From contig NZ_AP018694.1 in NCBI RefSeq assembly GCF_009689585.1, positions 5,323,501 to 5,387,500 of the forward strand: a stretch of DNA of 64,000 nt. Reading direction: 5' to 3'. Numbering within the stretch: position 1 is the first letter of the stretch; the number at the start of each line of letters is the position of its first letter. The position numbers and the translations under genes were made by a program. This stretch comes from Aquipluma nitroreducens. GTDB lineage: Bacteria; Bacteroidota; Bacteroidia; Bacteroidales; Prolixibacteraceae. Below the pieces are notes generated by a model, which worked only from the letters and a program-made list of their open reading frames with translations, was not told the origin of the DNA and did no database searches. Shown one piece after another: positions 11,477-41,756 of this stretch.

Positions 11477-13456
11477 CTAAAGTTTTGATTGATCAATAAT
11501 CCTATAATTCTTTAGGTTTTCAACATTTGCAATTACTGGTTCCTGAATGAACTTTTTATATAGAATTTGGGTCGAAAGAATTCCAACAATTGCCATCTGA
11601 TCAATTTCGGATATTAATCCATGGGTTTCAATTTTTGCAAGTAAGTTTTTTACTTTTTCAGGATTGAAAATGCCATATGTCCTTAATGATTCGTCTGAAA
11701 GCATATCTTTTAAATAGCTTGTTGACTTCTGAGTAATAAGGTTGCTAATTGGTGCACGATATGCTTGTTTTGACCTACTCGTAATGGAGTCTGGAATCTT
11801 ACCAATGCTTAATTTCTTAAGAATAAATTTTTCATTTAAGCCATTAAGTTTGTAATTATCTGGCAGCTGATTGCAGAATTCGATAACCCGATAATCTAAA
11901 AATGGATAGCGTCCTTCTACTGAATTCCCCATTGCCATCCGATCGCCTTGAGAGGATAACAAATATCCGGACATGAAAATATTAGCTTCAAGAAATTGAG
12001 ACTTTGAGAGATCACTCCAAGTTCCGAAATTTTCAGGGAGATTATTATAGACAATGTTTATTGGATCGCTCTTATCCAAAGACGGGGCAAAATCGTCTGT
12101 AAAAAATGATTTTAGTCTACTGGTATTGTGCCAACGGAGTAGATGAGAATAAAGTGGATCTTCTGTTTCTTTCAATTTATATCCAAAAAACATTTTTAAA
12201 GCCAGATCTGGAGAATCTTTCAAGAGTGGAATATACGGATAAAGTTTTGTCAGGAGTTTTGGTCGGGCAGTCGAATTCGGTTCGTTTGCCCAAAACCTTC
12301 TGATTTTTGCTTCCTTGAATATATTGTAACCACCTAAGAATTCATCAGCACCCTCGCCGGTTATTACGACTTTAATGTTGCTTTCCCTTACCTTTTTTGA
12401 CAACAAAAACATTGGGGTAGGAGAGGTTCTCAGAATCGGAAATTCAGTATGCCAGATTGTTTCTGCAAAATTTTCGGCCAGTTCTTCCGAAGTACACGAA
12501 AATGCAGTATGATTTGTTCCAAAAAACTTAGCCGCCTCTAGCTGAAATGCTGTTTCATCGTATGTTTTATCGGTAAATCCAATCGAAAAAGTGTTTAAAA
12601 TATTTGAGTCAATATCCTTAATGTAAGCAGTTGTAACGCTTGAATCCAGGCCACCACTTAAATATGCACCTACCGGAACATCAGCTCTCAGTCTAATCTT
12701 TACTGCGTCATGTAGTAATTCATCAAGTTCTTCAATTGATTCGGAGAAACTTCTGTCTTGAGCTTCCTTACCGGAAGTAAAATTCATGTTCCAATACTTT
12801 TGAATTTGAATACCATTTGAATTTACTTTCATGAAATGACCTGGCTGCAGCTCAACGATATTTTTGAATGGAGTTTTAGGCGCAAGTGTGGTCCAGAATG
12901 TAAAAATCTGGGCGAGACTTTCCTGATCAAGGGATCTTTCAATCTGGTTAAGCGTAAAAAGTCCTTTAATTTCAGAACAAAATGCAAAGGTTTTATTTTG
13001 TGACCAATAGAATAATGGCCGGATTCCAACTCTGTCACGAGCCAAAAACATTTCTTTTTTATTCCTATCCCAAATGCAGAAAGCAAATTGACCATTAAAT
13101 TGTGTCAGGCATTCTGAGCCATATTTGGCATACATCTGAATTACAACTTCAGTATCACAGTTGGTTTTAAACCTGACTCCAGTGCTCTCTAGCTTTAACT
13201 TTAATTCAAGATAATTAAATATTTCGCCATTATAAACGATCCAATATCTTCCTGTTTCATCGCACATGGGTTGTTGTCCTGACGAAAGGTCAATAATGCT
13301 TAAACGAACATTTCCAATTCCCAGATTTTCATCGAGATAAACTCCACTTTCATCAGGTCCTCTGTGGTTTATCATCGAAAGCATCTTCTTTACGTTTTGC
13401 TCTGTAGAAGGCTCTTTTGATGAATGGTAATTATATATTCCGGCAATTCCGCACAT
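11477..13456 (-). CDS. asnB: Asparagine synthase (glutamine-hydrolysing) family protein
   Basis: This 659-residue protein has the two expected halves: an N-terminal class II glutaminase starting MCGIAGI with nucleophile Cys2 and the NHRGPDESG and YNGEIFNY blocks, and a C-terminal ATP-pyrophosphatase with PP-loop SGGLDSS at about 268-274. It transfers ammonia from glutamine to an adenylated carboxylate. It is the last gene of a run with methyltransferase, NTF2-like, acyl ligase and carrier protein genes spaced 12-24 bases apart (152 before the ligase). The context suggests it amidates a special carboxylic acid rather than, or as well as, aspartate; that is inference. Confidence 0.92.
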   Translation of the reverse strand: MCGIAGIYNYHSSKEPSTEQNVKKMLSMINHRGPDESGVYLDENLGIGNVRLSIIDLSSGQQPMCDETGRYWIVYNGEIFNYLELKLKLESTGVRFKTNCDTEVVIQMYAKYGSECLTQFNGQFAFCIWDRNKKEMFLARDRVGIRPLFYWSQNKTFAFCSEIKGLFTLNQIERSLDQESLAQIFTFWTTLAPKTPFKNIVELQPGHFMKVNSNGIQIQKYWNMNFTSGKEAQDRSFSESIEELDELLHDAVKIRLRADVPVGAYLSGGLDSSVTTAYIKDIDSNILNTFSIGFTDKTYDETAFQLEAAKFFGTNHTAFSCTSEELAENFAETIWHTEFPILRTSPTPMFLLSKKVRESNIKVVITGEGADEFLGGYNIFKEAKIRRFWANEPNSTARPKLLTKLYPYIPLLKDSPDLALKMFFGYKLKETEDPLYSHLLRWHNTSRLKSFFTDDFAPSLDKSDPINIVYNNLPENFGTWSDLSKSQFLEANIFMSGYLLSSQGDRMAMGNSVEGRYPFLDYRVIEFCNQLPDNYKLNGLNEKFILKKLSIGKIPDSITSRSKQAYRAPISNLITQKSTSYLKDMLSDESLRTYGIFNPEKVKNLLAKIETHGLISEIDQMAIVGILSTQILYKKFIQEPVIANVENLKNYRIIDQSKL

Positions 13457-13480
13457 TGAAAATGAGTTTAGATTTATTGT

Positions 13481-14392
13481 TTAACGGTTTGCACTGACCC
13501 TTCTAGCTTTTAATACCCGAATATTTCCATGCTCATCGCAGATTTCAGTGACCTCTCCATAGTTAACATTTGAACGAAGTTTTTTGCCTAGATATTCGCC
13601 CTGTCCTAATCCACATTCAAAAATAAGGTATCCATTGTTGCACAAATATTCCGGAGAGATTGAAATAAGTTTGTTGAAAATTGATAATCCAAATGGTCCT
13701 GCATCAAATGCTTCTGATGGCTCATGTTCAGCGATTTCTTTTGCCATTTGCTTTACTTTTACTGTTGAAATGTATGGTGGAGCGCTAACTATAATATCTA
13801 CCTTATTTTTTATTTCCATCGATTCAAAGGGGTCAAACATATCAGAATTGTAAAAGGAAACCCGACTCTCCAGTTTAAAATGTTTTGCATTTATAATCGC
13901 AGCTTCAATTGCTGGCTTGTAAATGTCTGATCCTAATATTATTGTGTCTTTACAGTAATTCGCAATAGCAAGGGCAACGGTTCCAATTCCGGTGCATAAA
14001 TCAATTACACTGACTTTTGATTGCGTTGAATAATCTTTTAATACTAATTTGATTGCCGTTTCAGCTAAAAGCTCAGTTTCTTTTCTGGGAATATAAAGCC
14101 CTTTGTTTACAATATAATCCAAGCCCATGAAATTCTGTCTTTCGGTCAAATGAGCAAGTGGAACTCCTTGTAATCTGCACTTAATTAACTCATCAAGATC
14201 ACTAATTTGATTAGGCTCCAGAATTGGTAAGTCAAGTTTAATGGCTTTAATTGGTGAAACTCTATTCCCAGCTACAGTATGCCACAACGCGTATAGAGTA
14301 TTTAAAGCATTTTCCTCACTTTTATCAGTCAGAATGCTTAATTGGCTCTCAAGTTCAGTTAAATATTTTTGAAATAGGACTTCTTGTTTCAT
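13481..14392 (-). CDS. PrmC/HemK-like methyltransferase with altered NPPY motif
   Basis: This 303-residue protein aligns along its length with PrmC-type N5-glutamine methyltransferases: an N-terminal helical domain, the linker LQGVPLAHLTERQNFMGLDY, IPRKETELL, and the SAM-binding motif VIDLCTGIGTVALA. The signature (N/D)PPY of amide-nitrogen methylases is replaced by SAPPY (VSAPPYIS), which removes the residue that usually hydrogen-bonds the amide. A different nucleophile or a different amide is therefore likely. It is not the housekeeping release-factor methylase by context: it sits 24 bases ahead of the asparagine synthase and 12 after the NTF2-like gene. Confidence 0.85.
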   Translation of the reverse strand: MKQEVLFQKYLTELESQLSILTDKSEENALNTLYALWHTVAGNRVSPIKAIKLDLPILEPNQISDLDELIKCRLQGVPLAHLTERQNFMGLDYIVNKGLYIPRKETELLAETAIKLVLKDYSTQSKVSVIDLCTGIGTVALAIANYCKDTIILGSDIYKPAIEAAIINAKHFKLESRVSFYNSDMFDPFESMEIKNKVDIIVSAPPYISTVKVKQMAKEIAEHEPSEAFDAGPFGLSIFNKLISISPEYLCNNGYLIFECGLGQGEYLGKKLRSNVNYGEVTEICDEHGNIRVLKARRVSANR

Positions 14393-14404
14393 CTCTATAT
14401 CTCT

Positions 14405-14821
14405 TTAATTTTCCAATGATATTGGCAAGCCCTCTATTTGTACTGTTGTTTTTGAATAGGTATGCTTTTGAATAAGCTTCCCATCCTTAAAGTACAAAAT
14501 ATCAACTCCATGTCTTATTTCATTCTTCCCCTTGTAGTTAGTCAAGTGGGATGGCCATTCCAACTTCCACATAAATATCATTCTTTGCTCTTCCGCATCA
14601 AAGGAAACGCCTTCCTCAGTAAATATGAAATTTCCATGATTAATAAACCACAACATCCAAGCCTTTTTCAGTGCTCTTTTACCAATAACCGTTGCACCCG
14701 TCCAATTTTCAAAAATAACATCTTCATGAAATAAATTCATAACTCTTTCTAGGTCATGGTCATTCCATGCCATGAGCCATTCATTAAAAAGGGTCACTGC
14801 TTCAGTCTTTGAAAGATTCAT
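14405..14821 (-). CDS. NTF2-like/SnoaL-like domain protein
   Basis: This 138-residue single-domain protein has the cone-shaped NTF2/SnoaL pattern: LFNEWLMAWNDHDLERVMNLF, HEDVIFENWTG, and C-terminal strands GVDILYFKDGKLIQKHTYSK. The family includes cyclases, isomerases, dehydratases and plain ligand-binding proteins, so the reaction cannot be named. It is encoded 23 bases after the acyl ligase and 12 before the methyltransferase, so it probably acts on the ligase/carrier-protein product. No signal peptide is seen. Confidence 0.85.
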   Translation of the reverse strand: MNLSKTEAVTLFNEWLMAWNDHDLERVMNLFHEDVIFENWTGATVIGKRALKKAWMLWFINHGNFIFTEEGVSFDAEEQRMIFMWKLEWPSHLTNYKGKNEIRHGVDILYFKDGKLIQKHTYSKTTVQIEGLPISLEN

Positions 14822-14844
14822 TTTCCTTGATTTAAAACTACAAT

Positions 14845-16410
14845 TTATTGACTTATGAGCTTTTTTAATTCTGATTTGTCAAACTTTCCATTGCTGCTTT
14901 TGGGCATCTCTGAGAGTAAAATAATTTTCTGTGGTACCATAAAAGGTTCAAGTTGAGCCATACATTCCTGTTGGATCTCCCTTTCTTGAATTGTTATTTG
15001 ATCGTGCGTGGTTATGAAAGCAACGATAGATTCACCTAAAATCACATCTGGAAATCCCAGTACCACAACTTCTTTTATTCCAGCTATTTTGTATATGATA
15101 TTTTCAACTTCAACAGGACTTACTTTTTCACCTCTTGTTTTGATAATGTCATCATTTCTTCCAAGAAAATATAAAAATCCTTCCTCATCCATCTTAAACA
15201 AATCATGCGCACATAAAACCCGTTCGCCTGGGATTAATCCGGGCTTCAGCATCATATTGCTTAACTCTTCATTATTCCAATAACCAGCCATTACATGAGG
15301 ACCACGCACATGCAGAATTCCAGTCTCTCCTGGACCAACCCGATTCCCTTCAGGAGATAAAAGAAAAACCTCGGTGCCAGGTATCGCTTTGCCAACAGAA
15401 TTTGGCTTTTCATCGTTTAATTCAGGCTCCAAATAGCAAACCCTTTTACATTCAGTTAGCCCGTACATTTTAAAGATGAGAGCATTGGGGAATATTTTCT
15501 TCAGGTCGGCAATAAATTCTTCAGGAAGTGCAGCTGCTGTATTTGTGATCTTTTCGACACAGTCGAAAGTTAGTCCTGTTTTTTTATGAGTTGCAATCAT
15601 CATCGCATAAATTGATGGAACTCCAGGAAAGACTGTCGGTTTTAGTTTTTCTATCTGCCTGAATATTGTTGGTGGAAAATTGAATGAGTGTTCAATAATT
15701 AATGTTCCACCAATAGTGATTGCCATAATTAGCTGATAAAGTCCATAATCGAATGCCAATGGTAAAACAAGCATAATTCGTTCGTTTTCAGTTAATCTTA
15801 AATATTCGATTAGACTCCATGATGTGAAAACCATAGACTGATGCGTCATCATTACGCCTTTTGGAAATCCGGTACTACCCGAGGTGTAGATCAGCGCTGC
15901 CAGATCATTTGGAATTATCTTTGGTAGATTTGCAATTTCACTACTGGAAATGATTTCTTCAAAGTTTGTAAACTCAAATGCTGAATCATTTGTAAGGACC
16001 TCACCTTCTGTCAAGATTAATTCATTTATCTCATTTAATTCTTTAATTGCAAGAAATAATTCGGGATGGAGATTACCACTAGAGATTACAATTTTAGAAC
16101 CACTATCTTTTAAAATGTAATTGAGTTTATTTGCTTTTGTTTGGGGATTTATGACCAGAAAAACGCCACCAGCAAGAGTTATACCGTATATTGAAACGAT
16201 AGATTGCCATGAGTTATTCATGTATATCGCAATACGGTCGCCTTTTTCAATCCCCGTATTTACCAAATGAAATGCCAAGTTTTTTGCACACTCAGTTAAT
16301 TCCTCGTACGAATACTCCTTCTCTTTAAAAATAGCTGCTGTTTTTAAAGGGTGATTTAAACAGGAGAACTCCAAGGCCTCTCCTAATAAACGTTGTGGTC
16401 TTGAATTCAT
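14845..16410 (-). CDS. AMP-forming acyl-CoA/acyl-ACP ligase
   Basis: This 521-residue member of the ANL adenylating superfamily shows the phosphate loop YTSGSTGFPKG, the MYGLTEC core motif, the ADP-ribose region with FLGRNDDIIKTRGEKVSP, and the catalytic lysine in KSSNGKFDKSEL. It activates a carboxylic acid as the adenylate and passes it to a thiol. A free-standing acyl carrier protein gene lies 152 bases upstream, making the carrier the likely acceptor. The sequence resembles the ligases of small metabolite and polysaccharide-associated clusters rather than long-chain fatty acid ligases, but the acid is unknown. Confidence 0.9.
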   Translation of the reverse strand: MNSRPQRLLGEALEFSCLNHPLKTAAIFKEKEYSYEELTECAKNLAFHLVNTGIEKGDRIAIYMNNSWQSIVSIYGITLAGGVFLVINPQTKANKLNYILKDSGSKIVISSGNLHPELFLAIKELNEINELILTEGEVLTNDSAFEFTNFEEIISSSEIANLPKIIPNDLAALIYTSGSTGFPKGVMMTHQSMVFTSWSLIEYLRLTENERIMLVLPLAFDYGLYQLIMAITIGGTLIIEHSFNFPPTIFRQIEKLKPTVFPGVPSIYAMMIATHKKTGLTFDCVEKITNTAAALPEEFIADLKKIFPNALIFKMYGLTECKRVCYLEPELNDEKPNSVGKAIPGTEVFLLSPEGNRVGPGETGILHVRGPHVMAGYWNNEELSNMMLKPGLIPGERVLCAHDLFKMDEEGFLYFLGRNDDIIKTRGEKVSPVEVENIIYKIAGIKEVVVLGFPDVILGESIVAFITTHDQITIQEREIQQECMAQLEPFMVPQKIILLSEMPKSSNGKFDKSELKKLISQ

Positions 16411-16562
16411 AAGATTGGCAATTAAGTTTTAAATGTAATAATCTTGCTGTATCGAATTGGTTTCGCAATCTATAATCATTCCAAGCTTTATTGAGGTAGT
16501 ATCTAATATCAGAGTACGCTGAAACAGATCAGTCAATAACCGGATACCAAATAACTAGAAAA

Positions 16563-16829
16563 CTATTTATTGGCATTCGTATTTAATTTCCGGAAAACAA
16601 AATCTGAAATTGCATTAATTGACTCAAAGTTTGCTTCAAGGAGCTCATTGTCGTCTGTCGTGATTGAGAAATTATCTTCAATAAAACCAATGATCGAAAT
16701 AAAACCCATTGAATCCATTATCCCCTGAGCAAAAATGAGTGTGTCATTATTAACTTGATCAGTTGAAACGTATGAAGTTTTAAGAATAAACTGTTTAATT
16801 TGTTCCTGAATTTGAAAAATATCTACCAT
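16563..16829 (-). CDS. Acyl carrier protein
   Basis: This 88-residue four-helix carrier protein has the phosphopantetheine site GIMDSMGFISII (Ser in DSMG). The loop before it and the acidic helix EDNFSITTDDNELLEANF are typical of carrier proteins. It is free-standing and is the first gene of the ligase/NTF2/methyltransferase/asparagine synthase run. It should hold the acid loaded by the ligase at 14845-16410 while the other enzymes work on it. It differs from the housekeeping AcpP consensus (DSLD). Confidence 0.9.
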   Translation of the reverse strand: MVDIFQIQEQIKQFILKTSYVSTDQVNNDTLIFAQGIMDSMGFISIIGFIEDNFSITTDDNELLEANFESINAISDFVFRKLNTNANK

Positions 16830-16925
16830 AAATCCTTTTATTTAATTTAACAATTTTTTGCCTGAAAATGTTTTTGCTTTTCCAATTATTAAGTAATGAG
16901 AAAGAAACAATGTCGTGTTCGCTTT

Positions 16926-17022
16926 ATTAACAACCCCTAAATCCCCTAAAGGGGACTTGTCTCAGCTACAGTCGATTGCGATGTTTGTGATCAAAGCCCC
17001 TTCAGGGGTTTGGGGTGAAAAG
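16926..17022. repeat. REP-like long imperfect hairpin
   Basis: The segment aacccctaaatcccctaaagg continues to ggactt and is matched in inverse by aaagccccttcaggggtttgg about 45 bases later. Each arm also contains its own small ccccta/tagggg stem. Such CCCC/GGGG-rich hairpins are scattered in many Bacteroidota genomes. It lies in the 334-base gap between the NAD-synthase-like gene and the carrier protein and could end transcription between them. No gene was accepted in this gap. Confidence 0.65.
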
Positions 17023-17163
17023 AAAGACGACAATATAGATTTTGCAGAACTTAAGTCTTATTCATATGGAATAATAATACGAAATCGAGCAAATCTATTA
17101 TTGTCAAATTTAAATTTAATTACTGAAATTAAATCGTTTCAACCCTTTTTACTTGTTAAATTA

Positions 17164-18183
17164 TCAATAAGTTATTGGAGCCATTCTTAAATATTCTGTT
17201 GTTTTTTTCTTTCGGATTAAATTATTGTAAATATGTCTGATTTCTTCTTTCGTTTTTCCCAAGACCTTTCCGACTTCTTCTTCTGGAACTCCATTTTCTA
17301 ATCCATACCATATGAGATCCATTTCAAGATATGGCATTTGAAAGAAGAACTCTTCCTGAGTTTGTTCAGCAGAATAGGTGTCGGAAGTAGGTGTGCGTTT
17401 AATGATTTCTTCAGGAATTCCTAAATGTTCAGCTAATTGGTAAACTTGAGATTTGTAGAGATGTGCAATAGGCATTATGTCAGCTCCACCATCTCCATTC
17501 TTAACAAAAAAACCTTGTTCAACTTCATGTTTGTTTGGTGTGCCAATCATGGCAAAATGCAATCGTTCAGCATGGTAATAGAGCATTGACATCCGGCAGC
17601 GTTGCTTGAAATTGGATGCTGCAACAATTTGTAGATATTCCTTAATTGGTAATATTTTGCTTTTTGCTTTTCCATCTGAACCTATGATTGTAAGCGAAAA
17701 AACAGGCGGTAAAAATTGATTCAATCCACTTTGGTTGATTCCTATTTTCATTTTAAAATCGTTGGGATTATATTCTGGAAAAATAGCAGTTACAGCTTCA
17801 TCTCTTCGACGATAACATCCGAATCCGTCTAAAGCTCTGGTTATCTCTTCCTCCAAAGTTTTAATATTTAATTTACCTGCCAGTTTTAAGGCAAATTCTT
17901 TGCTTTCAGGACTTGAGTCTTTTTCTGGCAGCATAATACCTATAACATTTTCTGAACCGATTGCTTTTACTGTCAATGCCAGAGTTACCGACGAGTCAAT
18001 TCCTCCACTGATTCCAATAACGGCACCCTTACGTTTTAGTACTACCAGGATATCATCTTTTAATCTTCTGGAGATTCGATCTGCTTCAGCTTCCACATTC
18101 TCAAATTTTAATATGTCTTTTGAAAATGGAATTGTTATTCTTGGTTCCATTGTATTTAATTGTTTTTTTTGATTAGCGTTCAT
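17164..18183 (-). CDS. NAD synthase-like ATP-pyrophosphatase (amide-forming ligase)
   Basis: This 339-residue N-type ATP pyrophosphatase resembles ammonia-dependent NadE. Seen are the PP-loop ISGGIDSSVTLAL, the IGTPNKHE segment, a KNGDGGADIMPIAHLYKSQV block and PTSDTYSAEQTQEEFFF. There is no glutaminase domain. It adenylates a carboxylate and couples ammonia. It may be the ordinary NAD synthase, but the insert with CYRRRDEA and its place 334 bases ahead of a carrier protein/acyl ligase/asparagine synthase run suggest a dedicated role. Start is probably Met12 (MEPRITIPF) at 18150, since the first residues are Lys/Gln/Asn rich. Confidence 0.85.
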   Translation of the reverse strand: MNANQKKQLNTMEPRITIPFSKDILKFENVEAEADRISRRLKDDILVVLKRKGAVIGISGGIDSSVTLALTVKAIGSENVIGIMLPEKDSSPESKEFALKLAGKLNIKTLEEEITRALDGFGCYRRRDEAVTAIFPEYNPNDFKMKIGINQSGLNQFLPPVFSLTIIGSDGKAKSKILPIKEYLQIVAASNFKQRCRMSMLYYHAERLHFAMIGTPNKHEVEQGFFVKNGDGGADIMPIAHLYKSQVYQLAEHLGIPEEIIKRTPTSDTYSAEQTQEEFFFQMPYLEMDLIWYGLENGVPEEEVGKVLGKTKEEIRHIYNNLIRKKKTTEYLRMAPITY

Positions 18184-19666: not shown

Positions 19667-19817
19667 GGATGTTGTCAGCACATAAAAGAACTATTTCCTG
19701 CCCGAAGTTATAGAAACGCCATCAATTAAGCAAATTTAAAAGTTTAATATTTTCGATTGTTATTCTTGATTTACTGATCCATTTAGATCAATAAATCATT
19801 TGGAATTATTTATTGAA

Positions 19818-20848
19818 ACTCGTTGTGCGATTGAAAATAATTAATAAAACATTGTCAAAAAAGTTGTGCATTATATTGATATTCAATATATTAGTAGAAA
19901 ACAAACGCCAATTCATTATTCTACTTATGCACAACCTGAAGGCAAATTTCGACAAGTTTATTGGTTTAACCAAATCGTTCTTTTCTGATCGGATTAATGA
20001 GTTTGACAACTTTCAAAACTACCCAAGAAATCCAAAAATGTCAGATTGTCAAATAATTGCATTAGCTCTAACTGCAGAATCTATTGGCATTGACTCTGAA
20101 AGTTACTTCTTTGGTAAACTTAAGTCAGATTATACCAGCGATTTTCCAAACCTGATCGACCGTTCTAATTTTAATCGCAGACATAAGCGGCTTTATCCCT
20201 GGATTTCTGCCTTTAATCAGGGCTTATCAAACATTCTAAACCAAGGAGAAGATACTTACATTGTTGATTCTATTCCTGTTCCAGTTTGTCAAATAGCCCG
20301 GGAGAAACGAAGCAAAATTTGCAGGGAGAACTTTGAAACAGCACCAGATAAAGGTTATTCTGCTGTTAGCAAGTCCTATTATTACGGCTACAAATTACAT
20401 CTTGTAACTTCTGTTCGAGGTGTATTTTCAAGCATGGACATGAGTAAAGCAAGCGTTCACGATGTTTATTATTTGACTGATGTTAAACACTCTCTATTAA
20501 GCAATTGCAGGCTCATTGGAGACAAAGGATATCTATCAAAAGAACATCAATTGGATTTGTTTTCATCGTGCAATATTCGATTAGAAACACCCAAAAGAAG
20601 CAATCAAAAAGGCAAAGAACCTTTTGCGTACATTTTTAAAAAGTCAAGAAAACGAATCGAAACACTATTCTCTCAACTATGCGATCAATTTATGCTCAAG
20701 CGTAACTATGCAAAATCAAACCTGGGCATTTCGGTTCGTATTTTATCAAAAATTACAGCAGTGACAGTGCTTCAATATTTTAACTTTTTAAACAACAAAC
20801 CCTTGAATAAACTTAAGTATGCTCTCGCATCTTAATCGCACAACGGGT
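19818..20848 (+). mobile_element. Complete IS982-family insertion sequence
   Basis: The ends are ACTCGTTGTGCGATT on the left (19818-19832) and its near-perfect inverse at 20834-20848 (ACCCGTTGTGCGATT read inward). Both sides are flanked by the 8-bp direct repeat TTATTGAA (19810-19817 and 20849-20856). Length is 1031 bp with one transposase gene. An intact duplication and open frame point to a recent, probably active copy. Confidence 0.9.
19927..20835 (+). CDS. IS982 family transposase
   Basis: This is a DDE transposase of about 302 residues starting MHNLKANFDKFIGL. Catalytic acids lie in YIVDSIPVPVC, LIGDKGYLSKE and the later KRIETLFSQLCDQF helix, all typical of IS982. The open frame extends upstream to 19813, but that part overlaps the terminal inverted repeat, so the Met at 19927 is preferred. 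The frame is intact. Confidence 0.93.
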   Translation: MHNLKANFDKFIGLTKSFFSDRINEFDNFQNYPRNPKMSDCQIIALALTAESIGIDSESYFFGKLKSDYTSDFPNLIDRSNFNRRHKRLYPWISAFNQGLSNILNQGEDTYIVDSIPVPVCQIAREKRSKICRENFETAPDKGYSAVSKSYYYGYKLHLVTSVRGVFSSMDMSKASVHDVYYLTDVKHSLLSNCRLIGDKGYLSKEHQLDLFSSCNIRLETPKRSNQKGKEPFAYIFKKSRKRIETLFSQLCDQFMLKRNYAKSNLGISVRILSKITAVTVLQYFNFLNNKPLNKLKYALAS

Positions 20849-20945: not shown

Positions 20946-21869
20946 TTACTTTTTTTTCCATATCAATCGAGTGATACTGTCTGTAATACATTGATTTTGA
21001 TGAAAAAAGTCTCGGAAGTTTTTTTCATTATAGATTATGTTGCTATCCCTTGAATAATCGTAGGTTGTTCCAAGTGCCGTGATATTGGAAATGAATTGGT
21101 CATAAAACCTCATTAAATTATGTGTAGTAAGATAATTATAGTATTCATAATACATTGGAAGAATTAGAAACTCAATTTTAATGTCTTTTGATTTACAATA
21201 AGTTACTATCTTTCTTAACTCATCAATATAGTTCGTATTGTATAAATAATTTATATACATTCCATCTAAACTTGATACGAACGATTTACTAATTGAGGTT
21301 GTCAAAGGAAATGAAAAAGGACTTATTTCTGTTTGAAAATTCTTTGTAATCTTAAATTTAATATTTTGGTAGGTATCAATTATGGTTGCCGAATTGAATA
21401 GGTATTGGTAGGGCTTATCCATATTGTCCTTTGCAAATTGAAACAAATTCTTTTTTGGGTTTATTACTAAATTCGGAAATGATAATTGGATTATTACATT
21501 ATCTAGTTTTGATTGAGCTATAGCGAACCAAAAGATATTGAACTTAGTTTCCATGTTCGCACCTGGAATACTTAAATTATAGAATTTATTTCCAGTGAGA
21601 TCAGTAATCAGTTCTTCATTCATATGGTAGGACTGAGAATCTCCTATGATTATATTTTTGCATGGCTTTCGTCTAAATTCAAATATTTTCCATAACACAT
21701 TTCCTCGCATTTGTACCTCATAGGAACGATTAATTATTTTCAACTTTGAATTATTGTCAACTATTCCTGGGATATCGTAGAAATTATAGGGATTAATCAG
21801 AAATATGATTAGCCAAGTGAGCAAAATTGGACTACTAAAAATGAATATTTGGATTAAATTTTTTTTCAT
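20946..21869 (-). CDS. SGNH-like membrane-anchored protein, partner of the MBOAT acyltransferase
   Basis: This 307-residue protein has one N-terminal membrane helix (LIQIFIFSSPILLTWLIIFLI) and a periplasmic domain with the SGNH block I motif IIIGDSQSY near residue 75 and a late D-x-x-H-like FRDFFHQNQ. It resembles AlgJ/AlgX/DltD-type proteins that pass acyl groups from an MBOAT channel onto a polymer. The MBOAT gene is immediately upstream (gap 131 bases). Its ATG overlaps the TGA of a decayed leader frame shared with the 9517-11127 kinase gene. The acceptor is probably an extracellular polysaccharide. Confidence 0.8.
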   Translation of the reverse strand: MKKNLIQIFIFSSPILLTWLIIFLINPYNFYDIPGIVDNNSKLKIINRSYEVQMRGNVLWKIFEFRRKPCKNIIIGDSQSYHMNEELITDLTGNKFYNLSIPGANMETKFNIFWFAIAQSKLDNVIIQLSFPNLVINPKKNLFQFAKDNMDKPYQYLFNSATIIDTYQNIKFKITKNFQTEISPFSFPLTTSISKSFVSSLDGMYINYLYNTNYIDELRKIVTYCKSKDIKIEFLILPMYYEYYNYLTTHNLMRFYDQFISNITALGTTYDYSRDSNIIYNEKNFRDFFHQNQCITDSITRLIWKKK

Positions 21870-22000: not shown

Positions 22001-23443
22001 TTAAAACTTCATATACACAAAGGTGGAAATTTCTGAATTTTGAAAATATATTAGGATGATTACTAAATAATATAAAGACCAACGAACCCATCTTGGCTGA
22101 TTAAAAAATAAAGATTGCAAATCATATCCCTTTTCAATTAATATTTCATAGCACAATAGAATTATAAAATAGCAAAGAGCCATTTTAAATTTGAATGAGT
22201 CAGTAAGCAAATGGAAACCAGAAAATCGGATATCAATATTCTTAAACAAGTTGGTTATAAAATAAACGGCGTCTACTAACGAATTGGAAAAGAAGAAAAC
22301 TATCGAAAAACTCATAAATATATAGACCAATATTCTGGATATTGTATTGCTAAACCACAATGGAAATCCGGATGCTAATTTTAGCCGATATCTTTTAGTA
22401 TAAAATTCATAGATAATGGCTAAAGCTTGAAGTAACCCAAGTATAACAAAAGTCCAATTGGCTCCGTGCCAGATTCCAATTATTAGAAAGGTAACAAATA
22501 TTCCAAGAACAGAAGCTATATTACCTAATTTTCTATATTTTATGATGAATGGGAAATAGATGAATTCATTACACCAGGATGATAAGGAAATATGCCATCT
22601 CTTCCAAAATTCGGTAATGCTTTTGGACAAAAATGGACGGTTAAAATTATCTATAATTTCTATTCCAAATAATTTTGCTGAACCTAATGCAATATCAGTA
22701 TAACCTGAAAAGTTATAGTAAACATAAATTAGTTGTATAAATAGTACTGAAATGAGCGGAGTCCCTGAATATTGATATACATTATTATAGACCATTTCAA
22801 GAGGTTCATGCAAGTTGTCAGCAATGACCATTTTTTTGAATGCCCCAAATAAAATAAGCCTCAATCCGCTTGAAAAGAGAGTTTGATTAAAATTTTTCAG
22901 ATTACTAATCTGTGGAAAAAAATGATCGGAACGTTCAACTGGGCCAGAAAGAAATTTTGGGAAAAATAAAAGGAAACTTGAGAATCGAATAAAATTTCTC
23001 TCTGGCATTTCAAAACCTCTATTAATTCGGATTAAATATCCAATTGATTGAAAGGTATAATAGGATATTCCAATAGGTAGAATCAATTTTAGAAGACCGA
23101 TTTCTACGGGTATTTGAGCAATTTGGAAAAATGAATTAATACTCTCAAAAATAAAATTAATGTATTTAAAAAAAATCAATATTCCTATGTCTAATCCAAT
23201 CAACGACCAGAATGTGATTTTTCTCAGCTTGGTATTCTTTAGGCATTTGTAGAGATTAAGTCCTCCAAAATAATTTAAAGCTGTAAATGTGAATGAAAAT
23301 AACAGCACATTTACAGATATAGAATAAATAAAAAAGATACTAGCGATAAATATAACCCAATATTTATATTTGCTATTTATTGCATAATAAACAATCAAAG
23401 AAATACTTAATAGAAAAAAATAATGAAATGAAATGAATGTCAT
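22001..23443 (-). CDS. MBOAT-family membrane O-acyltransferase (AlgI-like)
   Basis: This 480-residue protein has about ten membrane helices and the MBOAT hallmarks: RPFLSKSITEFWKRWHISLSSW and the catalytic histidine in GIWHGANWTF. Such proteins draw acyl groups from the cytoplasm across the membrane and hand them to an SGNH partner for O-acylation of polymers such as alginate, peptidoglycan or teichoic acid. The partner is the next gene, 20946-21869. The frame is complete and typical in length (450-500). The target polymer is not shown by sequence; the nearby exopolysaccharide locus is one candidate. Confidence 0.92.
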   Translation of the reverse strand: MTFISFHYFFLLSISLIVYYAINSKYKYWVIFIASIFFIYSISVNVLLFSFTFTALNYFGGLNLYKCLKNTKLRKITFWSLIGLDIGILIFFKYINFIFESINSFFQIAQIPVEIGLLKLILPIGISYYTFQSIGYLIRINRGFEMPERNFIRFSSFLLFFPKFLSGPVERSDHFFPQISNLKNFNQTLFSSGLRLILFGAFKKMVIADNLHEPLEMVYNNVYQYSGTPLISVLFIQLIYVYYNFSGYTDIALGSAKLFGIEIIDNFNRPFLSKSITEFWKRWHISLSSWCNEFIYFPFIIKYRKLGNIASVLGIFVTFLIIGIWHGANWTFVILGLLQALAIIYEFYTKRYRLKLASGFPLWFSNTISRILVYIFMSFSIVFFFSNSLVDAVYFITNLFKNIDIRFSGFHLLTDSFKFKMALCYFIILLCYEILIEKGYDLQSLFFNQPRWVRWSLYYLVIILIYFQNSEISTFVYMKF

Positions 23444-31338: not shown

Positions 31339-32073
31339 TCAACCTTTTACTTTCTCTTTTAATACTGCCCATGTAAATTTCGAATTACCAACCAGATAGC
31401 GATACCACATTCTTCTGGGTTCCTGAATAAACCGATAGAACCATTCTAAACCAATATTTTGCATCCAATAGGGAGCTCTTTTTGTGAAACCTGCAATGAC
31501 ATCAAAAGTACCTCCAACTCCCATGGTAAAGTTGACATTTGAAAGTACATCACGGTATTCATACAAAAAATTTTCTTTTCTCGGAGACGTAATGGCAACA
31601 AAAAGCAATTGCGCTCCACTATCAGCTATTTGCCTTGCAACTTCAGGTTCTTCATTTTTAGTAAAATATCCATTACGGTAACCTGCAATTAATCTCGATC
31701 CGTATTTTTCAGTATAAATAGTTACAACTTTTTTAATCACTTCTTCTTTTGCTCCAAAGAAAAAACATTTATAGCCTTTCTCGTAAGACAAATGAACAAG
31801 CTGTTGCATCAAATCAATACCGGCAACTCTTTCAGGTATTTTCTTGCCAAGAAAACGTGCAGCCCAAACAATGCTCTGACCATCGGCATTAATCACATCG
31901 CAAGACACTACACTTTCGAACAATTTTTTATCTTTTTGCATGGAGACAACTTTTCCTGCATTGATGACGACATGGTTAATCTTTTTATTTTGACTAATCG
32001 TTTCATCAACCAGAGAAACAGTTTCCGACATAGTAATAGCGTCAACAGGAATGCCTAAAAAGTCAATTTTCAT
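31339..32073 (-). CDS. wecG: WecG/TagA/CpsF family glycosyltransferase
   Basis: This 244-residue GT26 enzyme has the typical NADGQSIVWAARFLGKKIPERVAG motif, CFFFGAKEEV and the C-terminal GLEWFYRFIQEPRRMWYRYL. The family adds ManNAc or ManNAcA to a lipid-linked GlcNAc acceptor on the cytoplasmic membrane face. WecB is encoded 3 bases upstream and a nucleotide-sugar dehydrogenase at 52591-53901, so UDP-ManNAcA is a likely donor. It is the last glycosyltransferase gene of the locus. Confidence 0.92.
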   Translation of the reverse strand: MKIDFLGIPVDAITMSETVSLVDETISQNKKINHVVINAGKVVSMQKDKKLFESVVSCDVINADGQSIVWAARFLGKKIPERVAGIDLMQQLVHLSYEKGYKCFFFGAKEEVIKKVVTIYTEKYGSRLIAGYRNGYFTKNEEPEVARQIADSGAQLLFVAITSPRKENFLYEYRDVLSNVNFTMGVGGTFDVIAGFTKRAPYWMQNIGLEWFYRFIQEPRRMWYRYLVGNSKFTWAVLKEKVKG

Positions 32074-32076
32074 ACG

Positions 32077-33243
32077 CTAAATTGTTTTAGATTCATTCAT
32101 CTCCACCAATTTTTTAACGATTCGTTCGGCTGTGTGACCATCCCATAATTCCGGTCTTGAGGGATATCTGTTTAGTTTAAGTGTGTGAAAATACTCTTCT
32201 CGAATTCTTTCAATATTGTTTCCAACAAGGACACTTGCTCCGCCATGTTTTCTCAACGTTATAGGCCTTTCTGTATTCCAGCGCAAAGTCAGGCAAGGAG
32301 TTCCCAATACACAGCATTCTTCCTGAAGTCCACCCGAATCAGTTAGCATGATATTCGCGCCCATATTCAGACGGAGCATTTCATGATATCCCAATGGCTC
32401 TAAAAGAATGAGTGAGGGATGATTTTTTACTTTATCCCACAAATCATAAAATAATAATTGTTTTCGCGCTCGGGGGTGAATTGGCCAAATTAGAATATGA
32501 TTCTTTGTAACTTGATTTGTCAGAAAATTTACTATTGGGACAAATGTTTTTTCTGAATCAACATTCGATGGACGGTGAAGGGTCATCAATGCGAATTCTC
32601 CGTCATTTGGTATTTTAGGTGAGAAAATGGTTTCAGGAATCAGATTACTTTGTATAATTTTCTCTATAGTTAGCTTTTGAGCCTTGCCTTTGTTGGCTTC
32701 AAGAGTATCAATCATGATGTTTCCAACAAAATGTATTTTTGCTTCCGGAGTCCCTTCATTTCTGAGATTTTCCGAAGATAATTTATCCGGAGTAAGCAAA
32801 AGATCTGATAGCCGGTCTGTGACCAAGCGATTTATCTCCTCTGGCATAGTCATATCACCTGAACGGAGGCCTGCTTCAATGTGACATACCTTAAAATTAA
32901 GTCTTTTAGCAATTACAGAACATGATAAAGTGGCATTCACATCACCGACAACTATTACCCAATCCGGTTTATGTTTAACCAATACCTTTTCAAATGCAAT
33001 CATAGTGTATCCCAATTGCTCAGCATCGCTGCCAGAGCCAATTTCAAGATTTATATCCGGGTTTGGAATACCGAGCTCCTTAAAAAATGCTTCTGACATT
33101 CTAACATCATAATGTTGACCTGTATGTACCAAAATATGTTGTATGGAGACTTGATTTGTCAAATTATACATTTCTATTGCTCTAATAAAAGGGGCGATTT
33201 TCATGAAATTTGGGCGGGCACCCACAACTGATAGAATCTTCAT
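32077..33243 (-). CDS. wecB: UDP-N-acetylglucosamine 2-epimerase (non-hydrolysing)
   Basis: This 388-residue GT-B-fold enzyme shows GARPNFMKIAPF, HTGQHYDVRMS, HIEAGLRSGDMTMPEEINR and TDSGGLQEECCVLGTPCLTLR. It interconverts UDP-GlcNAc and UDP-ManNAc in the cytoplasm. Together with the dehydrogenase at 52591-53901 it should supply UDP-ManNAcA for WecG, whose gene follows 3 bases later. Length and motifs are complete. Confidence 0.95.
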   Translation of the reverse strand: MKILSVVGARPNFMKIAPFIRAIEMYNLTNQVSIQHILVHTGQHYDVRMSEAFFKELGIPNPDINLEIGSGSDAEQLGYTMIAFEKVLVKHKPDWVIVVGDVNATLSCSVIAKRLNFKVCHIEAGLRSGDMTMPEEINRLVTDRLSDLLLTPDKLSSENLRNEGTPEAKIHFVGNIMIDTLEANKGKAQKLTIEKIIQSNLIPETIFSPKIPNDGEFALMTLHRPSNVDSEKTFVPIVNFLTNQVTKNHILIWPIHPRARKQLLFYDLWDKVKNHPSLILLEPLGYHEMLRLNMGANIMLTDSGGLQEECCVLGTPCLTLRWNTERPITLRKHGGASVLVGNNIERIREEYFHTLKLNRYPSRPELWDGHTAERIVKKLVEMNESKTI

Positions 33244-33329
33244 AGCTTTATTTAAGTTTAATAAATATGTATGTGTATTTATAATTAAGTGTTTGATAAT
33301 GAAATTATTTATCGAGTCAATAACCTCTG

Positions 33330-34502
33330 CTAATGATTGTCGGTCAGTAATAAATATTCACTCAAAGCATAAAACATCCATGCCTGTGCCCAACGCATAT
33401 AAGGAATTCTGGAAGGAAAATATTTATTTGCCTGATAAAAAAAATACCCTTTATCCGATTGCATATTTTCAAGCGTCCATGAAATAATATTTTTTGCAAG
33501 ACTTTTGTATTCCTGAAACTTTCCAAGTTTGGATAATGTGATTATCACCTGAGCAGGTGCATGAATATCTATGGGGTAAATAGAATTATTGTAATATTTG
33601 GATATTCCTTCATGTGTAAAAAATGTTTTAATGTAATAATCAAAACCTATATTTAAATGATCTTTAAAATTATTATCACCAGAGTACTTCATGTAATCTG
33701 ATATACATTCCAGATTGTATCCGGTATGGAAGTTATCTATCCATTGATGAAAACCTAATGTTCCATAACTCCAGGAACCATCATTTTTTTGGTAATCGCA
33801 ACAAAATATTACCGATTTCTTTGCAGATTCCAACAATTCATTTTCGTGAGTAAAACTATAAACTCTGGATAAGAGTCGACTGCCAAGCAAAGAAGCGTTA
33901 AAAACGACGGTTTTATCTAATGGGGAATAGGAAAATGCGAAATTTCCTTTTTCATCATAAGTTCGGTTTAGATCTTTAATAATAAAATCGCAGGCGCTTC
34001 GAGCTATATCAAGCAATTGTTCCTCTCCATTAATTTCAAAAGCATCGAGCAACGCATTGCTGATAAAAGTTGTCGCAACTATTGTTGGCGTGTTTTTAGG
34101 TTGAAAAAAAGCTTTTGCCTGCCAGTCAAAGTTGTACCCCCAACAAGTTCCAGAATATCCCCTTGATTGACAAAGCTTTAATTCTTCAATAAAAAAAAGA
34201 ATTTGGGTTAGATTTTCCTGGTTGGGTTTTTTTTTATACAAATTGCAATAGGCCGATAGAAACAGACCAAGTGCCTTAGGATTGTATTCTTTCTTTATTC
34301 CTGCAATTTTTCTGAAATTAACAGGTGACCGTTTGAAAAATTGAATCCAAGCCAGTTTGAAAATTCTGCTTTTTCTAAATAGTGGAATGATGTCAAAAAA
34401 ACGACTGTTTAATCCATCATATGGATCATAACCTTTAAAGGCTTCGGATTTGCAATATTCTTCTAATTTGTCAAACCTTTCCTTGATCATTTTGTCTTCC
34501 AT
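33330..34502 (-). CDS. Alpha/alpha-toroid (six-hairpin glycosidase-like) protein
   Basis: This 390-residue protein is built of repeated helical hairpins with aromatic-rich loops (SGTCWGYNFDWQ, NDGSWSYGTLGFHQWIDNFHTGYNLE, YPIDIHAPAQ, IPYMRWAQAWMF). This is the pattern of six-hairpin glycosidases, polysaccharide lyases and glucuronyl epimerases. No signal peptide is present, so it may act on a cytoplasmic lipid-linked or nucleotide-linked sugar. The gene starts 5 bases after the bi-domain oxidoreductase, and the two probably act in one step of sugar modification. The exact reaction is unknown. Confidence 0.75.
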   Translation of the reverse strand: MEDKMIKERFDKLEEYCKSEAFKGYDPYDGLNSRFFDIIPLFRKSRIFKLAWIQFFKRSPVNFRKIAGIKKEYNPKALGLFLSAYCNLYKKKPNQENLTQILFFIEELKLCQSRGYSGTCWGYNFDWQAKAFFQPKNTPTIVATTFISNALLDAFEINGEEQLLDIARSACDFIIKDLNRTYDEKGNFAFSYSPLDKTVVFNASLLGSRLLSRVYSFTHENELLESAKKSVIFCCDYQKNDGSWSYGTLGFHQWIDNFHTGYNLECISDYMKYSGDNNFKDHLNIGFDYYIKTFFTHEGISKYYNNSIYPIDIHAPAQVIITLSKLGKFQEYKSLAKNIISWTLENMQSDKGYFFYQANKYFPSRIPYMRWAQAWMFYALSEYLLLTDNH

Positions 34503-34507
34503 CCAAA

Positions 34508-36640: not shown

Positions 36641-36656
36641 AATAGAGGATTATTTT

Positions 36657-36896
36657 GTATTTCTTTAATTTGTAAATTACTTCGACCGCTTTTTTACCCG
36701 ATCTTACATTCTTTAAGTCTTCAATTAATTGATTTTGTTTAACTTCGATTTTATGGTTTACAATTGATCCCCTTCTTTACCAGTTCTGATTAACGAATAT
36801 TCATTTTCGATGAAGACCAGATTACTTGAAAAATAAGGCATTGGTATTTCGTCATTATACAATTCTCTTGTCTTGAAATTTTGATTGAATTGTTTT
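36657..36896 (-). pseudogene. Relic of the N-terminus of a second MDR/bi-domain oxidoreductase
   Basis: Minus-strand translation gives NFKTRELYNDEIPMPYFSS and NLVFIENEYSLIRTGKEGD before a stop, then, two bases shifted, EDLKNVRSGKKAVEVIYKL. These correspond to EVPAPQLGKSMVLVKNHYS, LISAGTES and ERPQQVKQVIDTL of the intact protein just downstream. It has no start codon and carries a frameshift. The remaining part of the 325-base gap shows nothing else. Confidence 0.6.
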
Positions 36897-36965
36897 TATT
36901 TAATTGTATTCAAAAAATTAGTTGTTTATCCCTAGTAAACAACTAATTAGAAAAATGACATGTCT

Positions 36966-38459: not shown

Positions 38460-38523
38460 TCTTAAACTTTAAGTTTTTTGATGAATTCATAACTTTATGC
38501 TAACAATAATTTATTGTAAGGAT

Positions 38524-39630: not shown

Positions 39631-39642
39631 CGATTATTTTTT

Positions 39643-40764: not shown

Positions 40765-40829
40765 TTAAGTATTTTGATTCAGAAGTCCTGAAATTGGAAA
40801 TAGATTCATTATTATTGGCATAATTGAAG

Positions 40830-41597
40830 TTAATCTTGAGTGCTTTTTATGTTCATTAATGAATCAAAATTATGTTCCTTGCCACCGAGCCAGTCAATGA
40901 GCTTTCCATTTTTATCATAGTCCGGATGTACCATAACTTCAATTTTTTTATTTTCACACAAAGAGGGATATTTTTGCAGAAGTGATGATACATCCAATTG
41001 ATTTCCAAAATAATCTGTTAGATTACGATTATTAATTTTAATTCGATTATTAACTAATCTACGATAACCTATTTTATAAAATGCTGTTGATTTATTTATG
41101 TTATTAAGAATTCTAATTGAAGATATATTGTATGTTTTTAATAACGGAAAAATAATTTTTGTTATTGGAAATATTTCATGGATATGATGATGTGTATCAA
41201 TATGAGTTATCTTAATCCCAGTTTTTATTACTCTCTCTATTTGAGCAACAAATTCTTGATGTATTAATTTCTTTTCGTATCCTGATAAAAAGAAAAAAAT
41301 CATTCTTACATCTTTAAACTTAAAATGATTATTTCGATCTAATATTCTTGTGATTTCACTGTGTGATGTCAGATGATAACCTGCATCCAGATTTAGATGA
41401 ACTCCCAATCTATCATTAAATTTATGTTTAAATGCAAGTTCAACTGCTTCCTCAAACCCAGGCATATTAGCCATTATTGTTGTACTATTAATAAGATTTT
41501 TATTAAATGATTCAACAATTGCTTTATTTACTGATGATTTTAATCCAAAATCATCAGCATTTACTATAATGTTTTTTGAATATTCTTTATTAGCCAT
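40830..41597 (-). CDS. ChbG/HpnK-type (YdjC) carbohydrate deacetylase
   Basis: This 255-residue protein has the metal-binding motifs of the YdjC/ChbG fold: NADDFG near residue 16, LGVHLNLD, and HIDTHHHIH. The family removes acetyl groups from N-acetyl sugars, for example acetylated chito-oligosaccharides or glycolipid head groups. No signal peptide is present, so a lipid- or nucleotide-linked cytoplasmic intermediate is the likely substrate. It lies between two glycosyltransferases and an IS21 relic. Confidence 0.87.
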   Translation of the reverse strand: MANKEYSKNIIVNADDFGLKSSVNKAIVESFNKNLINSTTIMANMPGFEEAVELAFKHKFNDRLGVHLNLDAGYHLTSHSEITRILDRNNHFKFKDVRMIFFFLSGYEKKLIHQEFVAQIERVIKTGIKITHIDTHHHIHEIFPITKIIFPLLKTYNISSIRILNNINKSTAFYKIGYRRLVNNRIKINNRNLTDYFGNQLDVSSLLQKYPSLCENKKIEVMVHPDYDKNGKLIDWLGGKEHNFDSLMNIKSTQD

Positions 41598-41695
41598 AAT
41601 GCAATATTGTTAGCAATAACAAGCTGTTTATTTCAATCGAAAAGTATAACAGTAGTTCACTTCAAAAGTATGCTATTTTAAATAAATAAAATACT

Positions 41696-41735: not shown

Positions 41736-41756
41736 GGAGACCGAATTTTTCGCGGT

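Follow-up and report, generated by a model that had tools for sequence, protein, structure and literature searches.

A conserved gene set around a free-standing acyl carrier protein in Aquipluma nitroreducens, with a predicted aspartate-loading ligase

The 64,000-nucleotide stretch of the Aquipluma nitroreducens genome analysed here (the window) contains a cluster of six minus-strand open reading frames. From high to low coordinates these code for (i) a NadE-like ammonia-dependent amide ligase of the PRK00876/NF002048 type (17164..18183; 339 aa); (ii) a free-standing acyl carrier protein (ACP; 16563..16829; PF00550) with a D-S motif at Ser40; (iii) an AMP-forming ligase (14845..16410; PF00501) with a VinN-type pocket, predicted to be an aspartate:ACP β-ligase; (iv) an accessory SnoaL/NTF2-like protein (14405..14821; PF12680); (v) a PrmC/HemK-like methyltransferase paralog (13481..14392; TIGR00536); (vi) an AsnB-type glutamine-dependent amidotransferase (11477..13456; PF00733, GATase_7, TIGR01536). 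Pfam and NCBIfam matches agreed with the names given to all six genes in a first-pass annotation of this DNA, and the cluster as such is confirmed. The same annotation had described five genes spaced as one run and NadE 334 bases away. Ligase, NTF2, PrmC and asnB genes are indeed tightly packed, as gaps of 23, 12 and 24 bases separate them; the ACP gene (152 bases from the ligase gene) and the NadE gene (334 bases from the ACP gene) are attached more loosely than one run would imply. Sequence motifs are intact in the ACP (D-S serine), AsnB (Cys2 and SGGLDSS), NadE (SGGIDSS) and the ligase (A3 motif and Lys509), the sole exception among those examined being the PrmC-like protein, where APPY replaces NPPY. 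A Bacteroidota-type promoter pattern matched once in the window (4.2 expected) and not in the cluster.

The ACP scored 24.5 bits with PF00550 (cut-off 20.8), and the D-S pair is present in all 30 ACPs listed. The NadE-like protein matched PF02540 and reached 435 bits with NF002048 (cut-off 313), a NadE subfamily found in 13 of 395 genomes of the phylum. No glutaminase domain was found in its 339 residues; a separate NadE of 547 aa is encoded elsewhere in the genome. AsnB exceeded the cut-off of TIGR01536 and reads PILRTSPTP where the other AsnB of the genome reads TTVRASTP, a segment which in E. coli AsnB (TT[IV]RASTP) presumably has a role in aspartate binding. The PrmC-like protein scored above the cut-off of TIGR00536 (HemK family) and just below that of TIGR03534 (193.8 of 199.1 bits); the latter score and the missing NPPY motif set it apart from PrmC release-factor methyltransferases. 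In a tree it was placed apart from the PrmC of the same genome on a very long branch, and its gene showed a dN/dS of 0.16 when compared with that of locus L016. The NTF2-like protein matched one PHROGs family of unknown function.

A scan with the ligase returned 67 loci, 38 of which were kept (at least 48% identity); the 29 dropped loci (22-30% identity) had no partner matches except one weak ACP in L043. Genes for NadE-like, AsnB, carrier and PrmC-like proteins were found all together in 22 of the 26 ligase-anchored loci with at least 4 kb of sequence on both sides, the kind of co-occurrence that the first-pass annotation had proposed to look for, and the SnoaL/NTF2-like protein occurred in 11 of the 38 (at least 100 bits). 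In a sample of 12 loci anchored on NadE, the ACP was present in all (three at 28-30 bits), AsnB and the ligase in 11 each (L104 had no ligase match) and PrmC in none; PrmC was found only alongside the VinN-type ligase with its aspartate pocket. Across loci, NadE and AsnB are as constant as ligase and ACP. The six-gene set is a conserved module that occurs in several Bacteroidota and in other phyla. A literature search confined to open-licence papers found no description of the full set.

A chance grouping of housekeeping or fatty-acyl genes, in keeping with the NCBIfam labels NAD synthase, asparagine synthase and acyl-CoA ligase, can be dismissed almost completely. The outcome named earlier as speaking against a dedicated cluster was that its NadE-like and AsnB proteins are the only housekeeping copies and that the order is conserved nowhere. 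What was found is an additional genomic copy for each of NadE, AsnB and PrmC, so that this objection fails, and conserved clustering: since the same families are grouped in genomes of several phyla, chance is refuted. Moreover, Sinorhizobium meliloti SMb20650, which we take to be a relative of the ligase, does not replace FadD (PMC7232532). The housekeeping names given to the NadE-like and AsnB-like genes by automatic annotation are probably misleading here.

When the pocket segment of the ligase (residues 205-345) was compared with the PDB, VinN alone matched at E<=1e-8. According to three reports (PMC11253843, PMC7756342, PMC12186527), VinN loads aspartate or 3-methylaspartate via the β-carboxyl onto a free-standing carrier, with D230 serving the substrate amine and the K330/R331 loop placing its Arg at the α-carboxylate. 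Residues D230, F231, S299, K330 and R331 of VinN align with D221, Y222, T291, K322 and R323 of the ligase. The loop before the K-R pair is short, gap-free with respect to VinN and, in the S. meliloti alignment, two residues shorter than in linear gramicidin synthetase. D221 is identical in 41 of 41 aspartate-type loci, the K322/R323 equivalents are kept in all 40 that cover those positions, the Ser299 position is Thr in every locus covering it, and Y222 retains a bulky residue in place of F231. All five residues were found in 40 of the 41 loci; the exception, L039, has a truncated ligase that shows the two pocket residues covered. The L040 ligase lies in two open reading frames, and the split ligase of L111 was omitted from this comparison. 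In a full-length search linear gramicidin synthetase ranked first by summing three stretches, its best single stretch scoring 157 bits vs 237.7 bits for the one stretch of VinN. A fold search with an AF2 model of the ligase (pLDDT 83.6) placed acyl-CoA synthetases (MenE, 4CL, MatB) on top and DltA at rank 31; VinN was absent from the best 50 matches, which counts against the VinN reading. From the pocket we infer β-aspartyl-ACP as the ligase product, in support of the aminoacyl group suggested previously. Among 11 further ligases linked to NadE, all keep the Arg, one keeps the Asp and none the Lys; the Arg equivalence is less sure in the six whose preceding loop is one residue longer. As NadE and AsnB persist with ligases that lack the aspartate pocket, they may act on a substrate other than the aspartyl group.

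VinN and its carrier VinL (vicenistatin), like BolO/BolC and AfcQ, resemble the module in pairing a stand-alone ligase, matched at its substrate-contact positions, with a free ACP. In vicenistatin biosynthesis the PLP decarboxylase VinO follows, whereas the module has NadE, AsnB and PrmC-like enzymes instead; the host pathways of VinN-type ligases are polyketide or peptide pathways.

Upstream of NadE, beyond an insertion-sequence transposase-like reading frame on the plus strand (19813..20835; assigned by eye from its translation, unmatched to a family), lie two minus-strand genes for an SGNH-type, DltD-like protein that has a hydrophobic stretch at its N-terminus (20946..21869) and a DltB-like MBOAT acyltransferase (22001..23443; PF03062). 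The cluster probably starts at these genes; in some relatives, both families also occur inside it. The MBOAT is 50-54% identical to MBOATs adjoining NadE, ligase or PrmC in L009, L011, L018, L021 and L023, and its family was found within the flanks (at most 10 kb) of 8 of the 38 loci. The SGNH-type protein had no match in Pfam and, like a 152-aa protein, none in PHROGs; its residues G76-D77-S78 and D287..H290 are invariant with respect to the L009 and L011 homologs. In these two loci an MBOAT also precedes an SGNH-type gene, but this MBOAT is a different paralog (34-35% identical to the MBOAT of the window). MBOAT and SGNH-type protein are likely to form a transfer pair. Ligase, carrier, MBOAT and SGNH-type protein mirror DltA-C-B-D, and the MBOAT matches the DltB model, albeit below cut-off (162.9 of 375 bits). 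A system of the D-alanylation type, in which an amino acid is simply loaded and O-linked to a polymer while NadE, AsnB and PrmC serve other ends, is nevertheless improbable: the ligase pocket is VinN-like with its K-R pair, DltA is absent from the best 25 of 107 models for the ligase, and the module contains, in addition to Dlt-like components, a methyltransferase and ammonia ligases that are as constant as ligase and ACP. A GNAT-like protein, so called for its 28-30% identity to a single annotated GNAT, is encoded beside the module in M. ciceri, Nitratireductor, L100 and L101; the L101 copy had no Pfam match and the L100 copy no NCBIfam match.

On pSymB of S. meliloti, four related genes form one run, asnB-ACP-ligase-nadE, with ligase and NadE 45% and 48% identical to those of the window and the same five pocket residues. 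About 10-12 kb from the operon lie a GNAT-like gene and a gene of PrmC type, whose product shares 40% identity with PrmC of L009. This PrmC keeps NPPY, in contrast to APPY in the window, and the annotated stretches examined hold no MBOAT/SGNH pair, unlike the window. No comparable ligase lies within about 6 kb of the two other pSymB ACPs found; the search behind them missed the operon's own ACP and may have overlooked others. Ligase and ACP of the operon presumably correspond to SMb20650 and SMb20651. Provided that this mapping holds, ligase-dependent acylation of the carrier has been reported: expression of SMb20650 in E. coli led to acylated SMb20651 (Ramos-Vega 2009, cited in PMC7232532).

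The best NCBIfam model for the ligase was TIGR03098 (439.2 bits, cut-off 592.35) and the second-best for AsnB TIGR03108 (424.1 bits, cut-off 816.9), which together with the decarboxylase TIGR03099 make up the XrtA/PEP-CTERM exopolysaccharide set. An exosortase was found in 6 of 38 genomes searched, that of L033 being outside this search (five over cut-off, the strongest in L035, L036 and L038), and none in this bacterium's own genome; TIGR03099 exceeded its cut-off in none of 29, and 27 gave weaker matches. With both other models below cut-off, membership in the XrtA system was rejected. The Wbp/Vim linking-sugar system of Porphyromonas gingivalis likewise pairs an AsnB-like amidotransferase with aminoacylation of a surface sugar; the relevant passages of PMC7468200 do not mention ACP, ligase or NadE, all three present in the module. 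These passages describe uronamide formation by the AsnB-like PGN_1234, the putative N-acetyltransferase-type enzyme VimA, proposed to add Ser, and TIGR03108 asparagine synthases adjoining VimA-related genes in exosortase loci. By analogy with WbpS of the linking sugar, AsnB and perhaps NadE might amidate a polysaccharide uronic acid, with ligase and ACP separately aminoacylating the same sugar. The TIGR03108 likeness and a nucleotide-sugar dehydrogenase gene in the window (52591-53901) fit this possibility, which we consider unlikely: within flanks of at most 10 kb, a relative of the dehydrogenase is encoded near just 2 of the 38 ligase-anchored loci and 1 of the 12 NadE-anchored ones, a scarcity that weakens uronamide formation as sole role of AsnB, and in S. 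meliloti and Mesorhizobium asnB adjoins the ACP, ligase and nadE genes with no intervening gene.

The dehydrogenase gene is part of a polysaccharide locus (31339..59554), assigned by eye from translations and, like the cluster, on the minus strand, with genes for a sugar epimerase (32077-33243), a flippase-like protein (51135-52502), Wzc (54613-57015), Wza (57151-57963) and an initiating transferase (58154-59554). When seven query families including MBOAT were searched in flanks of at most 10 kb, matches were obtained near 17 of the 38 ligase-anchored loci, and some families of the window locus recur beside the module; the flanks of the other 21, among them the closest relatives L004-L008 and L016, gave no match. 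A modifying group for the nearby polysaccharide, as proposed in the first-pass annotation, is hence plausible for part of the loci, and that interpretation as a whole is partly supported. The 21 loci would also suit a specialised metabolite, namely a diffusible small amide derived from aspartate, in place of a polymer decoration, as would the macrolactam and lipopeptide pathways served by VinN-type ligases with free ACPs and, in L103, a 1564-aa reading frame with a ligase-like region (128 bits), perhaps an NRPS. Such a product is rather improbable in view of the MBOAT or GNAT-type transferases near the module and the polysaccharide genes near the 17 loci.

The reading preferred here is a carrier-bound aspartyl-amide pathway that loads, amidates and transfers a group, most likely onto a surface polysaccharide; taken as a whole, we give it an even chance. 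The ligase would adenylate the β-carboxyl of aspartate (or 3-methylaspartate) and form a β-aspartyl (isoaspartyl) thioester on the ACP, leaving α-amine and α-carboxylate free. NadE-like protein and AsnB would then add ammonia to the exposed α-carboxylate, giving an isoasparaginyl-type group, which in most relatives may be N-methylated by the PrmC-like enzyme. In this genome the MBOAT and its SGNH partner would transfer the group across the membrane, while certain other genomes, among them M. ciceri, would use GNAT-type transferases; a cell-surface polysaccharide is the most likely acceptor. Against this reading stand the APPY motif of the window's own PrmC-like protein and the occurrence of polysaccharide genes near only 17 of the 38 loci, none of them among the closest relatives. 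An O-antigen amino sugar carrying β-linked aspartate features in the title of a paper on Providencia stuartii O33 (cited in PMC10609480).

More tentatively, and with considerable doubt, the module may represent a carrier-bound dicarboxylate amidation pathway spread over several phyla. Different ligases would load aspartate or des-amino dicarboxylates by one carboxyl onto a dedicated ACP, AsnB and then NadE would convert the other carboxyl to an amide and possibly to an amidine, PrmC-like enzymes would N-methylate the product in the aspartate branch, and MBOAT or GNAT transferases would place the group on cell-surface polymers. In a sister branch, the ligase/decarboxylase pair of the XrtA set would make β-alanyl-ACP instead.

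Beyond the earlier annotation, the analysis adds the MBOAT/SGNH pair, the likeness to VinN, the changed PrmC motif and, in S. meliloti, a relative for which ACP acylation has been published. It provides an assayable candidate substrate, the β-carboxyl of aspartate, and a logic of loading, amidation, methylation and transfer for gene sets that, across several bacterial phyla, now carry the names NAD synthase, asparagine synthase and acyl-CoA ligase. A possible role is also offered for the S. meliloti carrier protein, an orphan said to require more functional study (PMC5686131), as is a hypothesis open to testing for the ligase and decarboxylase found together in XrtA exopolysaccharide loci.

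All six minus-strand open reading frames of the carrier-protein cluster were found exactly where the first-pass annotation had placed them, and its gene names (NadE-like, acyl carrier protein (ACP), AMP-ligase, NTF2-like, PrmC-like and AsnB) were backed by Pfam and NCBIfam. Intergenic gaps from NadE to AsnB measure 334, 152, 23, 12 and 24 bases. The genome is a single contig of 5.71 Mb, with the window at C1:5323501-5387500; elsewhere it encodes NadE (547 aa), AsnB (557 aa) and PrmC (282 aa, with an NPPY motif). The genes of the cluster thus exist in addition to these, and the condition that the annotation had named as refuting its reading (NadE and AsnB as sole housekeeping copies, in an order conserved nowhere) does not hold. 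A σ54 activator-type response regulator in the window (5973-7402, minus strand) is seemingly split into ORFs of 177 and 301 aa; the same family is represented by one ORF of 475-478 aa in L005 and L007 (handles below L100 denote ligase-anchored loci in other genomes).

A scan with the ligase yielded 67 loci, of which 38 with at least 48% identity were retained and 29 with 22-30% identity discarded. Partners at the retained loci were NadE-like (32), AsnB (34), ACP (33), PrmC-like (31) and NTF2-like proteins (11), with many of the missing ones falling at contig ends. All four main partners occurred together in 22 of the 26 loci with at least 4 kb of sequence on each side. Of the other four, L007 and L024 lack PrmC, L033 lacks both NadE and PrmC, and L038 lacks AsnB. 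The hosts comprise Bacteroidota and records labelled Balneolaceae, Chlorobiota, Pseudomonadales, Acidiferrobacteraceae, Thiotrichales, Planctomycetota, Thermoleophilia and Nomurabacteria; these records are mainly metagenome bins whose taxon labels may be wrong. Of 395 genomes of the phylum, 13 carried the NadE-like family. Its 12 loci other than that of the window contained an ACP in every case (three scoring just 28-30 bits), AsnB in 11 (missing in L102), a ligase in 11 (missing in L104, and just 90 bits in L103) and PrmC in none. From both sets of counts, the core consists of NadE, AsnB, ACP and ligase, with PrmC restricted to one branch. The carrier-protein module is real and conserved; a search of the open-licence literature found no published description of it. 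Among 14 control genomes, only Methanosarcina acetivorans had a member of the NadE-like family NF002048 above cut-off.

The substrate of the ligase was approached through its pocket. With the full-length protein, linear gramicidin synthetase A ranked first as the sum of three stretches (best single one 157 bits), followed by VinN with one stretch at 237.7 bits. The pocket-lining segment (residues 205-345) had VinN (3wv4/3wv5/3wvn) as its sole match at E<=1e-8. VinN segments WDFGLYK, FTNSAAALP and YGQTECKRI align with FDYGLYQ, ITNTAAALP and YGLTECKRV of the window ligase, the third ungapped. According to a review and two papers (PMC11253843, PMC7756342, PMC12186527), VinN activates the β-carboxyl group for a free-standing ACP; D230 binds the amine, F231 and S299 face a shortened loop carrying K330 and R331, and R331 lies at the α-carboxylate of the aspartate-type substrate, S299 being included by one paper. 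The counterparts in the window ligase are D221, Y222, T291, K322 and R323. All five were kept in 40 of 41 aspartate-type loci (the 38, the window, Sinorhizobium meliloti and M. ciceri); the peptide patterns of the scan did not include the pocket segments. In the truncated ligase of the remaining locus, L039, both pocket residues covered match. Against the likeness to VinN counts an AlphaFold2 model of the ligase (pLDDT 83.6), for which acyl-CoA synthetases topped the fold search and VinN was not among the best 50 matches listed. Loading of an aspartate-type group as the first step is fairly well supported, and at this step the module resembles VinN/VinL.

XrtA loci carry a PLP decarboxylase beside the TIGR03098 ligase and ACP, a grouping which resembles VinN-VinO-VinL and suggests that β-alanyl-ACP may be formed there; membership of the module itself in the XrtA set was rejected by the tests made.

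In 11 other ligases from NadE-containing loci the arginine was kept throughout, the aspartate in one and the lysine in none; in six the loop is one residue longer and the arginine was aligned across the gap, and the ligases, which share descent, may not count as independent events. Such a pattern would mean that NadE-linked ligases always bind a second carboxylate and only some of them an amine. It fits a route, which we infer beyond the loading step, in which the ligase would load an aspartate-type group onto the ACP, and NadE and AsnB would then amidate the carboxylate left free. A wider pathway, with other ligases loading des-amino dicarboxylates and AsnB/NadE acting on the second carboxyl, appears rather unlikely, its odds being lowered by the gapped arginine alignment in six of 11 ligases. 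A serious rival is that AsnB makes a uronamide, as known for an AsnB-like protein of P. gingivalis (PMC7468200); however, a nucleotide-sugar dehydrogenase was nearby in just two of 38 loci.

PrmC was encountered only alongside ligases with the aspartate pocket (at 31 of the 38 loci, in the window, and in both S. meliloti and M. ciceri) and was not found in the Nitratireductor module. This co-occurrence suggests that the PrmC-like enzyme would act on the aspartate-derived group. Among 32 PrmC copies, 28 have NPPY and four APPY. In most cases the NPPY gene comes immediately after that of the ligase, with an NTF2-like gene intervening in L017, L020, L023 and L026. The APPY paralogue stands alone in the window (genome-wide) and in L016 (within 16.8 kb), while L004 and L008 carry both. 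In the tree, APPY copies form one group (support 92/91), and all cluster copies are separate from the genome's own PrmC, itself on a very long branch. Between window and L016, dN/dS was 0.16 for the APPY gene and 0.08-0.11 for the other five, and the APPY gene is, as judged by sequence comparison, under purifying selection. The NPPY asparagine is required for N-methylation, and the window copy may therefore have an altered acceptor or no catalysis. Another kind of small methyltransferase is located near the module in the NadE-anchored locus L105.

The same four genes form a single run next to minCDE on pSymB of S. meliloti, where the ligase pocket is identical. PMC7232532 describes smb20650 of pSymB, an acyl-CoA ligase homologue, as cotranscribed with the ACP gene smb20651; co-expression of both in E. 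coli gave acylated ACP, and SMb20650 did not replace FadD. A search of pSymB for ACPs passed over the operon's own divergent one and may have missed more; the two others that it found lie in 13 kb stretches that, when examined, contained no such ligase. Judged from these stretches rather than a plasmid gene table, smb20650 and smb20651 are probably the ligase and ACP genes of this operon. Other papers state that SMb20651 function requires more investigation (PMC5686131) and list smb20650 among genes down-regulated under Myxococcus attack (PMC10315480). The operon's AsnB is one 645-aa ORF in strain 1021 (L119) and two overlapping ORFs in strain ml46 (L120:10204-12142).

At the presumed transfer step the module resembles the D-alanylation system Dlt. 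Upstream of NadE, on the same (minus) strand and beyond a transposase-like ORF, lie genes for an SGNH-type protein with GDS and DxxH motifs (20946-21869) and for an MBOAT (22001-23443). MBOATs of 50-54% identity adjoin NadE, ligase or PrmC in L009, L011, L018, L021 and L023; the SGNH homologues of L009 and L011 come after another MBOAT paralogue (34-35% identical). In these two loci (L009:4587-13960 and L011:101-9616) the module is surrounded by three MBOAT genes and an additional ACP, pointing to several acyl decorations per locus. A GNAT-like protein, so labelled for its 28-30% identity with a single annotated GNAT, with two copies lacking a family match, adjoins the module in M. ciceri, Nitratireductor, L100 and L101, and lies about 10 kb off in S. 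meliloti; L105 carries a FemAB/GNAT-type protein. Either an MBOAT or a GNAT-type enzyme could move the acyl group off the carrier. S. meliloti has two related GNAT-like proteins of about 370-380 aa and M. ciceri has one (L125:16616-17731, L120:25445-26566, L126:5870-7018); they sit beside PrmC-type or polysaccharide genes. Transposase-like ORFs recognized by eye (19813-20835 and 44755-45522, plus strand; 28238-29317, 46828-47994 and 48371-49459, minus strand) are scattered through the polysaccharide region of the window, the one at 19813-20835 being that which parts the MBOAT/SGNH pair from NadE.

Near the module, the window also encodes a 1303-aa right-handed β-helix protein (23798-27709, plus strand) that bears fn3 as well as a type IX secretion tail; L004 and L016 have relatives of it upstream of NadE. 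A family with no Pfam match in its N-terminal part occurs near the module in 12 of 39 loci (for example L016:15093-16691, with a type IX secretion tail, and L004:16119-17717); the genome's own copy (C1:5399573-5400364) lies about 12 kb past the window. β-Linked aspartate is a known O-antigen substituent, as indicated by a title on Providencia stuartii O33 referenced in PMC10609480. Genes of seven polysaccharide query families were present in the flanks examined of 17 of the 38 loci and in none of those of the closest relatives. By this distribution, a surface-polymer role of the module is likely, short of proof.
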